Source: Xanthobacteraceae bacterium (GTDB lineage: Bacteria; Pseudomonadota; Alphaproteobacteria; Rhizobiales; Xanthobacteraceae). Taken from it: a stretch of DNA of 37,918 nt. The notes under the pieces were generated by a model, which was not told the DNA's origin, did no database searches, and worked only from the letters and a program-made list of their open reading frames with translations. Position numbers and translations under genes: made by a program. Below, piece by piece: positions 7,976-20,968 of the stretch (position 1 is its first letter; each line of letters opens with the position of its first letter). The DNA lies in assembly GCA_019241285.1 (NCBI GenBank), contig JAFAXD010000061.1:1-37918 (forward strand), in the 5' to 3' direction.

Positions 7976-8155
7976 TCAGTCGGTCGCCTTGCGTACCGCG
8001 TCCTTGACGTCGCCGGCCGTATTGTGCGCCGAGCCCTTCGCCTTGTCGATCTTGCCTTCCGCTTCCAGTTTGGTATCGCCCGTGATCTTGCCGGCGGCGT
8101 CCTTGATGGCGCCCTTCGCCTTATCTGCAGCGCCTTTCACGTGTTCCCGATCCAT
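7976..8155 (-). CDS. CsbD family general stress protein
   Basis: A 59-residue, highly charged protein: MDREHVKGAADKAKGAIKDA, then a GKITGD turn, LEAEGKIDKAKG and a final repeat ending VRKATD. This is the CsbD family, small hydrophilic helical proteins induced by general stress, first described in Bacillus under sigma B; the molecular function is unknown. The start ATG at 8155 has an excellent site (aaaggag, 6 bases away). A perfect GGAAC-N16-CGTT promoter lies 32 bases upstream, consistent with EcfG control. It diverges from the RlpA-like gene and converges with the aminotransferase gene. Confidence 0.93.
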   Translation of the reverse strand: MDREHVKGAADKAKGAIKDAAGKITGDTKLEAEGKIDKAKGSAHNTAGDVKDAVRKATD

Positions 8156-8187: not shown

Positions 8188-8212
8188 AACGTATCGGGCC
8201 ACTCGTTGTTCC
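8188..8212 (-). promoter_or_regulatory. EcfG-type promoter for the csbD-like gene
   Basis: On the minus strand GGAAC (8212-8208) and CGTT (8191-8188) are separated by 16 bases, the alphaproteobacterial EcfG general stress sigma factor consensus. The -10 element ends 32 bases before the csbD ATG. CsbD genes are classic general stress targets, which supports the call. Confidence 0.8.
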
Positions 8213-8243: not shown

Positions 8244-8268
8244 GGAACAAGCCGTCTGCTGTGTCGTT
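8244..8268 (+). promoter_or_regulatory. EcfG-type promoter for the RlpA-like gene
   Basis: GGAAC (8244-8248), 16 bases, CGTT (8265-8268). It is divergent from the csbD promoter, with the two -35 elements only about 31 bases apart. The -10 element ends 35 bases before the ATG at 8304. Both motifs match the consensus exactly. Confidence 0.78.
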
Positions 8269-8303
8269 GATCCGTCAATGGGGCTCCATTTTGGGTGGCA
8301 TGC

Positions 8304-8699
8304 ATGCAGCAAGGCATGTGGAGATTCGCGCTCATGTGCGCGGTCGCGGGATTTGCGGCACCGAGTGAAGCAGGCCAGGATAATCAGGGCCGAGCGAAGG
8401 AGGCACGGCACAGCCTCACGGGCGTCGCATCGATTTACGACCATACATCGGGCTCACATACCGCCAGCGGGGAACGCTTACATGAATCCGCATTGACCGG
8501 CGCCCATCCGTCACTCCCCTTCGGCACAGTCGTCGAGGTGAGCAACAAATACAATGGGCGCAAAGTGCTGGTGCGGATCAATGACCGCGGCCCCTTCGTA
8601 CGCGGTCGTGTCATCGACCTGACCCCTGCAGCAGCGGGCGCGCTGCAGTTCCATGGAACGACCGAAGTTTCGCTCCGGGTGGTCGGTAATCATGAATAG
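8304..8699 (+). CDS. RlpA-like double-psi beta-barrel protein, secreted
   Basis: 131 residues: a short signal peptide (hydrophobic about 6-20, ending PSEAG), then one RlpA-type double-psi beta-barrel domain (roughly 37-115). Family motifs seen are GVASIYD, TASGE, LTGAH, LPFGTVVEV, NDRGPFV and RVIDLT. RlpA proteins are septal lytic transglycosylases acting on peptidoglycan, but this one lacks the C-terminal SPOR domain that directs RlpA to the septum. The Glu of TASGE, the His of GAH and the Asp of NDRGP are kept, so catalysis is plausible. I chose ATG 8304; a GTG at 8295 is the longest start. The EcfG-type promoter upstream suggests a stress-induced cell-wall role. Confidence 0.85.
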   Translation: MQQGMWRFALMCAVAGFAAPSEAGQDNQGRAKEARHSLTGVASIYDHTSGSHTASGERLHESALTGAHPSLPFGTVVEVSNKYNGRKVLVRINDRGPFVRGRVIDLTPAAAGALQFHGTTEVSLRVVGNHE

Positions 8700-17810: not shown

Positions 17811-17850
17811 GCTGCGAAACTAGACCTTCTGCTGCGAAACTAGACCTTCT
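17811..17850. repeat. Perfect 20-base tandem duplication
   Basis: gctgcgaaactagaccttct occurs twice head to tail (17811-17830, 17831-17850) in the 36-base gap between two convergent genes. The second copy contains the stop codon of the Hint gene (17840-17842), so the first copy is a non-coding duplicate of the end of that gene. Confidence 0.9.
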
Positions 17851-18625
17851 CGTCCGCGGCGAGCACGTCCGCTCGCTCCTGCAGCGCGTCGCGCACGCGC
17901 TCCAGCTTGTTGCGCATGTCGATGACCGGAGATGCGGCGCTGCGCAGATGCGACAGAACGCGCGCGCGTGGCCCGAAGCCGCCTAGCATCGGCGCATAGC
18001 GTCCCGAAGATGCGCCGCGCGCTCCATAGAGCCGCTCATATTCGACGAAGTTGTCGAAACGATCATAGTCTCCGTCGCCGAGCGACTCGCATTCGGCGCC
18101 CTCCGCGTAGATGACGTCATGGCTATCGAGTCGGATGTGGAAATACTCGATCTCATCGAGCTCATTCGCAGGATAGCGTGCGATCGTGGTTCCGTTCACA
18201 AGGTCGAGCGCTTGAATAAGATCGCCATCAAAATGAATCGCGTGCGTATCGGTGATGAATAGATCTGCACTTGGCGTATTGGGTCCGAGCGCATCCCGGG
18301 CAATACGCACCGGCCGAACGAATTCAACCCAGCGTGCACTCTCGGATCTGCGATAGCGCCGCCGCGCCACCCAGAGCACCGGCTTCGCAGCTCCGCTCTT
18401 CGTCACGATCAGGTCGCCAATGCGGATGTCTTCGATCTTTCGATCGCCGTCGACAGTGCGGATGCGCGTTCCCCGGAGAAAGCAGGGCTTACCGCCGTTG
18501 CTCGCTGCGTCGGCGCCACGTGACGTCAGCGCCAGGCCGACGAGACCTGCACCAAGTAGTTTCCCCATTGCCATGACGTTGCGGCGCGTTCTGCGAACTG
18601 CGACCAAGGCCTGAGGCGTATCCAT
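17840..18625 (-). CDS. Hint-domain protein with probable Tat signal
   Basis: 261 residues. The N-terminus has a twin-arginine-like RRTRRNVMAMGKLLGAG and a signal ending SRGADA. A Hint_2 domain follows (48-185): catalytic Cys48 in PCFLRGTRI, VDGDRKIEDIRIGDL, the block-B motif TDTHAIHFD, and a closing HDVIYAEG. Hint domains are the self-splicing or self-cleaving modules of inteins and hedgehog proteins. Here it starts about 8 residues after the likely signal cleavage, so autocleavage would release almost nothing at the N-terminus. The start at 18625 has a ggag site. Stand-alone Hint proteins of this form are frequent in Bradyrhizobium; their role is unclear. Confidence 0.82.
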   Translation of the reverse strand: MDTPQALVAVRRTRRNVMAMGKLLGAGLVGLALTSRGADAASNGGKPCFLRGTRIRTVDGDRKIEDIRIGDLIVTKSGAAKPVLWVARRRYRRSESARWVEFVRPVRIARDALGPNTPSADLFITDTHAIHFDGDLIQALDLVNGTTIARYPANELDEIEYFHIRLDSHDVIYAEGAECESLGDGDYDRFDNFVEYERLYGARGASSGRYAPMLGGFGPRARVLSHLRSAASPVIDMRNKLERVRDALQERADVLAADEKV

Positions 18626-18750
18626 GCGGCGTTTTCTCCGATAAGTCGAACGCAATCGAATGGTATCTTACCGCACCTAGCCCTTCAAGGCGACCTTACT
18701 CATCGGGGTAAGGGGCGCAAACGCAATTCCTGCGTGCTGACGACTCGATT

Positions 18751-19119
18751 TCAAGCCAGCGCGATCATCTGCACTTCCACGAGCGCTCCGTGATGCAGCT
18801 GCGGCGAGACCGCGACGGTTCGCGCGGGACGATGCGAGCCGAACACCTCGGCGTAAACGCGGTTAACGTCGGGCCACAGGTCAATGTTGCTGACGTAAAC
18901 CGTTGCACTCACGACCCGGCTCAAATCGGAGCCCGCGGCTTTGAGGATCGCTGCGACATTGGCAATGGCCTGCCTGGTTTGCGCCTCGATGCCGTCCGGG
19001 ATGCCGCCACCGGGCTTGATTGGCAGTTGCCCGGCAACAAACAGGAAACCGTTTGCCGCGACCGCTTGGCTGTAATGGCCGCCCGCGGCCGGCGCGTTTT
19101 CGGTCGCAATGAATTTCAT
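18751..19119 (-). CDS. RidA (YjgF/YER057c/UK114) family protein
   Basis: 122 residues, normal length for the trimeric RidA family. Features are GGHYSQAVAANGFLFVAGQL, EAQTRQAIANVAAIL, the substrate loop VVSATVYVSNIDLWPDVN, and the conserved RPARTVAVSPQL with the active-site arginine (R in HRPART), ending VEVQMIALA. RidA proteins hydrolyse reactive enamines or imines produced by PLP enzymes. I chose ATG 19119 with a gggag site; seven extra upstream codons are less likely. It is not in an operon with a PLP enzyme here. Confidence 0.92.
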   Translation of the reverse strand: MKFIATENAPAAGGHYSQAVAANGFLFVAGQLPIKPGGGIPDGIEAQTRQAIANVAAILKAAGSDLSRVVSATVYVSNIDLWPDVNRVYAEVFGSHRPARTVAVSPQLHHGALVEVQMIALA

Positions 19120-19196
19120 CCTGAAGCTCCCGTCAGGCAATTGGGGCGCCTGATCGCGCGCACGACTAAGTCATTATCAACTTGGTGGCAATGAGT

Positions 19197-20909
19197 TCAC
19201 GCCGGCGCCGCGGCGGGCGCGGTGTAGCGCCGAGTGATGGCGCGACCGATGCGATGGCGGCTCTCATCGGCCCCTAGCGCCGGATCGGCCTCGACGCCCG
19301 CCGTCTCGTCAGCGAGTTCGTCATCCTTGATCACCCGGCGAAACCAGATCGAGTAATCGCCGCGCCGGAGATGATGCATCCAGGTGCGATCATCGACGCC
19401 CCGCGCCAGCTCAAGAAACAGGCCCAGGTTCCGCGCCCGCAGATTCAGCGCATTTTCAGGTCCGCGGAAATAAAAGCTTTCATCCTTTCCGAGATCGCCC
19501 TGGGCATATTTGCGCGTGTGGCGTTTGTGGCTCTGCTTGGGTCGGAGCGGTTTGACGGGACGTGCAGGCTCCTGCGAACCTCGCCGCCACACCAACACCT
19601 CGTCGTCGGCGGGGTGCCTTTCGATCCGCGGCGGGTCTATTCGCAACACCCCACAGAAAGTCTTGATGACGTCAGCAGCATCACCGAGCGCGACCACGAC
19701 TTCCACGCCCTTGAGCGCCTCAGCGGAGACTGATTCGGGATGAACCGTGATGAAAATGGCGGCCGGGATAGTCTCAGGCAGAACCTGGGACACGTCGCGG
19801 CGCGCCGTTGGTAAAAGATGATGAGATTCATCGAGCAACAACCAATGCGGCCGTCCCGTCTGTGCCCGCAAAGTCGCGACCTGCGGCAAGAGGTTGGCGA
19901 AAAACGCGGGCCGCTCGTTGGCATTCAGGGATTGCGTGTTGATGACGACGTTCGTCGCATGCTGGCGCAACAGCTTGATCGATTCCTGCATGGTCGGCGC
20001 GGTCGTGGGATCACCGATCGACACTGCGTTGTGCAATTCATCGTAGTCGCCTTCCGGATCGAAGACGCAAAACTCGAATGCCTGTTCGGCCATCCGCTCC
20101 GTCAGGGCGGTTGCCAGCGTTGATTTGCCAATGCCGGACTTGCCGGCGATCAGGACACTGCCTGCATAGGGTTCAATCAGAACCTCCTGGCCTGCATCAT
20201 CGTGTCCGAGCGGAAGCCCGTGCCGCGCGGACGGCAGGATGCGCGCGTCGTCGCGCTCGATTGCCTGCATCAGCTCAACCACGCCAGAGCTGGCCCGGCC
20301 GGCGAGTTTGATGTCGGCACTCTCCTTGAGCATCGGCAAAGCGTTGGCAACCGCTGCGCCGCAGCCGCTGGCGCGCAGGAAGGCGTGGTCGTTCTCGGCG
20401 TCACCGACGGCCACCACGTTGTGCGCCGACAATTCGAGCTCCGGCAGCACAGACGCCAGCCCCGTGGCCTTGTTGACGCCGGCCGGGAGCACCATGACGG
20501 CGCCTTTGTTGAAGATGATCTGCAACTCGAGACCGAGGTCGCGAATGACCTCAAGCACGGTAGCTCCATGCGGTTCCCAAGTGGCGACAATGGCGCGACC
20601 GACAGACAACGGTGCGACGTTGCGCTCGCGCAATCGCTGGACAAATGCGGCGGGCGGTGGCTCCGCGATCACCGTCTCCCGTTCACTCGCCGGATCGTAA
20701 ATCAAGGCGCCGTTTTCGGCGACGACGCGGTCGAATACAGCAAGTTGCGGAAAGCAGCGCTTGAGATCCGGCAATTCGCGCCCGGTCACCAGGATGAGGC
20801 GCCGACCGGTGGCCTTGAAGCGCTCAAGTGCCGCCAGGGTCGCGGCATCAACCACGCCCTGGCTCGCGAGTGTTCCATCGTAATCGGTGGCAAGCGCGCG
20901 CACGTACAA
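19197..20909 (-). CDS. HAD phosphatase fused to a P-loop ATPase and a C-terminal DUF5752-like region
   Basis: 570 residues from a TTG at 20909, which has a gggag site 5 bases upstream. Residues 1-220 are a Cof-type HAD-IIB phosphatase: nucleophile Asp9 and Asp11 (DYDGTLA), VTGR (41-44), Lys147, and GDAEND (169-174). Residues 235-440 are a P-loop ATPase: Walker A GKSGIGKST (256-264), Walker B LLLDESHH (357-364), FDPEGDYDEL (283-292) as in HerA/DUF87-type ATPases. Residues 475-560 resemble the DUF5752-like module (NLGLFLELARGV, HHLRRGDYSIWF, IKDDELA). The longer frame to 21248 lies upstream of an exact EcfG-type promoter and looks non-coding. The role is unknown; sugar-phosphate removal driven or gated by ATP is one guess. 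Confidence 0.85.
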   Translation of the reverse strand: MYVRALATDYDGTLASQGVVDAATLAALERFKATGRRLILVTGRELPDLKRCFPQLAVFDRVVAENGALIYDPASERETVIAEPPPAAFVQRLRERNVAPLSVGRAIVATWEPHGATVLEVIRDLGLELQIIFNKGAVMVLPAGVNKATGLASVLPELELSAHNVVAVGDAENDHAFLRASGCGAAVANALPMLKESADIKLAGRASSGVVELMQAIERDDARILPSARHGLPLGHDDAGQEVLIEPYAGSVLIAGKSGIGKSTLATALTERMAEQAFEFCVFDPEGDYDELHNAVSIGDPTTAPTMQESIKLLRQHATNVVINTQSLNANERPAFFANLLPQVATLRAQTGRPHWLLLDESHHLLPTARRDVSQVLPETIPAAIFITVHPESVSAEALKGVEVVVALGDAADVIKTFCGVLRIDPPRIERHPADDEVLVWRRGSQEPARPVKPLRPKQSHKRHTRKYAQGDLGKDESFYFRGPENALNLRARNLGLFLELARGVDDRTWMHHLRRGDYSIWFRRVIKDDELADETAGVEADPALGADESRHRIGRAITRRYTAPAAAPA

Positions 20910-20943
20910 ATGCGCTCTCCCGTGAATTGTTAGCTGTCGCACC

Positions 20944-20968
20944 AACGGCTGCGGAGCCGGCCAGTTCC
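20944..20968 (-). promoter_or_regulatory. EcfG-type promoter for the HAD-ATPase fusion gene
   Basis: Minus-strand GGAAC (20968-20964), 16 bases, CGTT (20947-20944), an exact match. The -10 ends 34 bases before the TTG at 20909. It also decides the start, because every upstream candidate would precede the transcript. Confidence 0.75.

Follow-up and report, generated by a model that had tools for sequence, protein, structure and literature searches.

Architecture of the fusion gene

The analysed window, a 37,918-nucleotide stretch from a Xanthobacteraceae bacterium, carries a HAD-HerA-DUF5752 fusion gene on its minus strand (19197..20909, stop included) that encodes 570 amino acids. The protein begins with a HAD-IIB phosphatase module (residues 1-223; 20241..20909), followed by a P-loop ATPase of the HerA/DUF87 type that spans approximately residues 231-472 (19494..20219). 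The third module, DUF5752/OrfY-like, makes up the C-terminus; it was modelled as residues 452-570 (19200..19556), with globular structure starting at about residue 460. Profile and fold comparisons agree with the original prediction that three such modules are combined in a single gene, the DUF5752 likeness being distant. The TTG at 20909 was taken as the best start because homologues, which open with M-Y-x-x-A-L-A-T-D-Y-D-G-T, begin at this point; translation places the end of the stop codon at 19197. The span first proposed, 19197-20968, is thus correct at 19197 and not at 20968, which is the 5' end of the promoter-like site and from which the reading is out of frame. On the same strand, 57 bases past the end of the gene, starts an ORF that looks RidA-like by eye (18751-19140), and the two may be co-transcribed. 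A 271-residue protein encoded at 17840-18655, also on the minus strand, consists mostly of a Hint_2 domain (PF13403, E 3e-39).

The HAD module is matched by the Pfam family Hydrolase_3 (E 9e-26) and by the HAD-IIB model TIGR01484 at 89.7 bits, above the cut-off of 41.8, whereas the Cof model TIGR00099 (81.3 bits against 137) and TIGR01487 (archaeal phosphoglycolate phosphatase) remain below their cut-offs. An AlphaFold2 model of the fusion protein, built from 23 sequences, has a mean pLDDT of 87.6. Superimposition of its N-terminal part onto PH1421 (1wr8) gives a Z score of 27.2 over 220 residues with an rmsd of 2.5, and the alignment, covering residues 2-223, takes in the C2 cap that the predicted fold places after motif II and before motif III. 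D9, D11, T42, K147, D170 and D174 are invariant across 23 diverse sequences, and all the catalytic residues of a HAD-IIB phosphatase are in place in the putative N-terminal phosphatase domain. The complete motifs described earlier therefore stand, and the Cof-type label is replaced by HAD-IIB, with a small PH1421-like C2 cap, because the Cof score falls short of its cut-off. The 25 top-ranking Pfam families for the fusion protein, which extend down to E 0.065, do not include the trehalose phosphatase family PF02358 (Trehalose_PPase); a PF02358 search of the source genome returned only a separate OtsB on contig C318.

The ATPase module scores 38.3 bits against DUF87 (PF01935; cut-off 23.2), and residues 231-472 superimpose on SsoHerA (4d2i) with a Z score of 20.1 over 224 residues (rmsd 3.1); other HerA structures match too. 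Walker A (GKSGIGKST, 256-264), the DPEGDY strand (284-289) and Walker B (LLLDES, 357-362) are all intact, in line with the HerA/DUF87-like ATPase with complete Walker motifs predicted at the outset. Fold comparison reveals that the N-terminal HAS barrel of HerA is absent, the N-terminal 223 residues forming the HAD domain.

The C-terminal 119 residues alone yield a well-folded prediction (pLDDT 82). Its DUF5752-like label is fair but distant: DUF5752 (PF19027) matches 21 of 22 family members with E up to 1 allowed (best E 3.5e-5), whereas the source protein itself reaches 12.2 bits against a cut-off of 23. The nearest fold is OrfY (4cso), at a Z score of 10.6 against 5.1 for the next row, with a weak profile match to the same chain (E 0.027). 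Fold matches beyond OrfY, at Z scores of about 5 or less, were set aside as not meaningful.

Upstream of the gene, the minus-strand sequence GGAACTGGCCGGCTCCGCAGCCGTT (20944..20968) is an exact EcfG-type GGAAC-N16-CGTT site that ends 34 bases before the TTG, so the pattern match bears out the predicted promoter position. The window holds five exact sites of this type, against a mean of about 0.9 per shuffled window; in related loci, a slightly looser pattern occurs by chance at about 0.08 per kb. No simple sigma-70 promoters were found near the fusion gene. One of the exact sites starts at 8212, just upstream of a 59-residue ORF on the minus strand (7976-8155) that resembles a CsbD-like stress protein by eye, which suggests that the motif functions in the source organism. 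Another, at 8244 on the plus strand, points to an ORF of RlpA-like appearance (8295-8699).

EcfG-like sites also precede the Aminobacter relatives of the fusion and otsB of the source genome, where two such sites lie upstream, and they occur in several other alphaproteobacterial lineages. Fusion and otsB are plausibly co-regulated in the source genome, going by these shared motifs; EcfG control of otsA and otsB is established in Bradyrhizobium diazoefficiens (PMC8092242). The exact site is missing before most Mesorhizobium copies, and the operons with HAD-only relatives described below have no EcfG sites upstream. A Mesorhizobium operon that includes an upstream SDR gene bearing the EcfG site was considered and rejected, with no consistent site up to 2 kb upstream.

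Distribution of the family and loss of modules

The three-module order recurs, at 45-63% identity over full-length homologues, in Mesorhizobium, Sinorhizobium, Aminobacter, Agrobacterium, Devosia, Acidisoma and Burkholderiaceae, and also in a gammaproteobacterial MAG, Cyanobacteria, Nitrospirota and, by tblastn, Nonomuraea. Its presence in many independent assemblies and phyla rules out a mis-joined neighbour or an assembly frameshift, one of the outcomes that would have undone the original prediction. A strict signature of Walker A, Walker B and C-terminal patterns is passed by 97 of 120 distinct family sequences, several of the other 23 being spelling variants. The family is sparse across the phylum (11 of 349 sampled genomes), and a HAD relative is carried by 94 of 146 Mesorhizobium genomes. 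A phage origin was not indicated: among 50,697 phage records there is no full-length match. A literature search for the HAD-HerA fusion, DUF5752 and OrfY returned nothing on them in the papers searched; within that scope the earlier description of the fusion as undescribed holds. The HAD-HerA fusion is real, widespread and, within the papers searched, uncharacterised.

HAD-only members are present in Mesorhizobium and, separately, in Cyanobacteria. Both groups are nested among fusions in a midpoint-rooted tree, and the ATPase and C-terminus have therefore probably been lost in these lineages. HAD-only cyanobacterial relatives were seen at three loci (L103 7986-8651, L129 and L130); one lies on a Nostoc plasmid, with no neighbouring ATPase gene noted.

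Decay of the ATPase within longer members is evident in the beta lineage that is linked to glg genes. L135, L136 and L137 no longer have the Walker B aspartate, and L137 is without the C-terminus as well; L138 combines a destroyed Walker A with the absence of the C-terminus. The HAD motifs are intact in all four. Family members beside glycogen genes at L148 (7155-8693) and L147 (6704-8317) have decayed Walker motifs, no C-terminal module and an intact HAD domain. Across the family, every lineage preserves the HAD active site, whereas several have discarded the ATPase and C-terminus or show them in decay, and no ATPase-DUF5752 protein without a HAD domain was found among plasmid records. Because the HAD domain is always kept while its partners are lost or decaying, the predicted phosphatase is the core activity, the part that selection retains, and the ATPase is an accessory that can be dispensed with.

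Trehalose gene neighbourhoods and OtsB loss

Neighbourhoods of family members repeatedly contain genes of trehalose and alpha-glucan metabolism. The Aminobacter fusion is transcribed divergently from genes for a GT4 protein, the debranching enzyme amylo-alpha-1,6-glucosidase (GDE) and trehalose-6-phosphate synthase (TPS); in M. ephedrae it closely follows GDE-TPS-OtsB. Four Mesorhizobium genomes have a HAD-GT4-GDE-TPS operon, identified by Pfam and BLAST, whose first gene encodes a HAD-only relative sharing 54-60% identity with the HAD module. Caballeronia and Paraburkholderia (Burkholderiaceae) carry beside the fusion a GT4 gene of the rhizobial GT4 family (48-51% identical), and several Burkholderiales have glgC, or glgP-glgA-glgC, next to the gene. 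General stress genes, such as SDR, CBS, Dps and catalase, are among the other neighbours; inspection of the neighbourhoods brought no conspicuous nuclease or defence genes to light. The GT4-GDE-TPS(-OtsB) set was also observed in Mesorhizobium at L207 (7389-12575), L209 and L215; in genomes such as G959, OtsB is missing from its usual place after TPS. Judged by these neighbourhoods, the family belongs in the setting of trehalose/alpha-glucan stress metabolism, and the pairing of phosphatase and ATPase, initially judged hard to explain by known pathways, is no longer without a candidate pathway.

Among 146 Mesorhizobium genomes, OtsB (PF02358) is absent from 24 and TPS from 10. Fourteen genomes possess TPS and lack OtsB; 13 of these carry a member of one HAD clade, four as a HAD-only protein and nine as a closely related full fusion, and the fourteenth (G906) has only a partial TPS match. 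The absence of OtsB is not an assembly gap in G959 and G977, each a single contig, or in G924, which consists of two. OtsB is kept in all 16 tree-classified genomes that have only the main type of fusion. A raw contingency of clade against OtsB loss gives a Fisher p of 3e-15, counted over related genomes with tree placement from 30 loci only.

OtsB is missing with a relative present in three lineages: the HAD-only Mesorhizobium, the nine-genome Mesorhizobium group and Aminobacter aganoensis, which has the full fusion and GT4-GDE-TPS. The fusion and the synthase operon lie apart in the nine-genome group, so its case is one of gene content. The gene of the OtsB-replacing clade and OtsB occur together in G993 and in G972 (apparently the genome of locus L063, with identical OtsB coordinates), as expected if the gene arrived first and OtsB was lost later.

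The OtsB-replacing clade differs in its cap, with W111 changed to R or L, H114 to N and T117 to I; G993, in which OtsB is still present, retains W111. The source protein keeps W111 and H114, along with T at 117 (or a neighbouring A/T in relatives), and its substrate may therefore differ from that of the OtsB-replacing clade. Contig C318 of the source genome encodes both OtsA and OtsB, so trehalose synthesis there does not require the fusion; a 595-residue ORF of GH15-type look lies by eye between otsA and otsB (L213, 4471-8533). Since the genome keeps OtsB and the cap changes are absent, trehalose-6-phosphate is only a probable substrate of the source protein, which may act on this compound or on a sugar phosphate close to it within the GT4/alpha-glucan set. 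A uniform trehalose-6-phosphate function across the family was ruled out, as no trehalose-6-phosphate synthase was found in several family genomes.

Proposed function and relation to known systems

The best explanation of the whole, to which we assign a probability of roughly 55%, is a sugar-phosphate phosphatase that is induced by stress and has a HerA-type ATPase as its base. Osmotic, heat or desiccation stress would induce the gene through EcfG, and the HAD domain would dephosphorylate trehalose-6-phosphate or a closely related sugar phosphate, thereby completing a compatible-solute or alpha-glucan route. The ATPase, most likely a regulator of the phosphatase and a putative ring former to judge from its fold and loss pattern, would assemble into a HerA-like ring with the HAD domains positioned where HerA has its N-terminal HAS barrel, and would couple phosphatase output to the ATP state or to its own assembly with partner enzymes. 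The C-terminal module would bind a partner or ligand. A bolder form of this proposal, that a HerA-type ring ATPase was recruited away from DNA and membranes to hold phosphatases while ATP gates compatible-solute synthesis under stress, is one we hold tentatively and with more doubt than belief.

HAD-IIB enzymes are frequently promiscuous, and members of the family reside in genomes without any trehalose-6-phosphate synthase and beside the general stress genes named above. The protein could accordingly be a stress-time metabolite-repair phosphatase with a broad hexose-phosphate range, near trehalose genes through shared stress regulation only. The loss of OtsB in three lineages, the operonic position of the HAD-only copies and the clade-specific cap changes that accompany OtsB loss make this rather unlikely. 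HerA proteins usually work on DNA with nuclease partners, as in the HerA-NurA system, and the genuine HerA fold and motifs, together with weak PADLOC matches to HerA and mad8, would suit a translocase on DNA whose HAD domain trims a DNA-end or nucleotide phosphate in repair or phage defence. The main argument against such a machine is that the ATPase decays while the HAD domain stays. It is further opposed by the absent HAS barrel, the lack of conspicuous nuclease or defence genes in the inspected neighbourhoods, the trehalose operons that contain HAD-only copies, and the C2-capped HAD-IIB fold, for which small-molecule substrates are typical; we regard it as improbable. Membership of a defence system was rejected for want of a convincing PADLOC match and of defence neighbours.

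The sharing of one chain by a phosphatase and a P-loop NTPase also recalls PFK-2/FBPase-2, in which case the P-loop domain would be a kinase and the HAD domain its opposing phosphatase on one sugar. A profile that touches APS kinases across the P-loop (E 1.3e-5) is set against a HerA fold extending over about 224 residues (Z 20), the DPEGDY strand and a DEAH-like Walker B, and such a two-way switch would not easily allow HAD-only and ATPase-decayed members to persist. We consider it the most improbable of these explanations.

If the stress-induced sugar-phosphate phosphatase is the true reading, rhizobial trehalose synthesis would have a named substitute for OtsB, in a pathway on which Bradyrhizobium diazoefficiens depends for nodulation and for survival under stress (PMC8092242), and the roles of HerA-type ATPases would extend beyond membrane machines and the processing of DNA; with an ATP-gated ring, a HerA-type motor would for the first time be devoted purely to metabolism. 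Proteins that annotated plasmid records name only HAD-family hydrolase, and public records 'HAD-IIB family hydrolase', would gain a testable function.

PH1421 of Pyrococcus horikoshii and the HAD-IIB enzymes share the HAD core, the small C2 cap and all four motifs with the fusion protein, but PH1421 is a lone domain, whereas here the HAD domain is joined to an ATPase and a third module. HerA/FtsK-type translocases (SsoHerA, HerA-NurA) have in common with the family the P-loop core and its fold, Walker A and B and the DPEGDY strand; the family differs in having no HAS barrel, no nuclease partner seen, a fused HAD domain and a dispensable ATPase. OrfY of Thermoproteus tenax, named 'transcription factor' in its PDB entry, displays the fold of the C-terminal module and its D(F/Y)xxW...LA motif, but it is a separate protein and the likeness is distant.

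At the level of gene sets, the msc-gt-tpsp genes of T. tenax likewise place synthase and phosphatase beside a GT4 protein, which there activates trehalose-6-phosphate synthase through complex formation (PMC3634074). The phosphatase of that complex is fused to the synthase, with no HerA ATPase, and the likeness in gene content is a lead only. OtsB, a HAD-IIB enzyme of the trehalose-6-phosphate route, occupies the same operon neighbourhood as the family; the fusion belongs to a distinct subfamily that has no PF02358 match, carries an ATPase and coexists with OtsB in the source genome.
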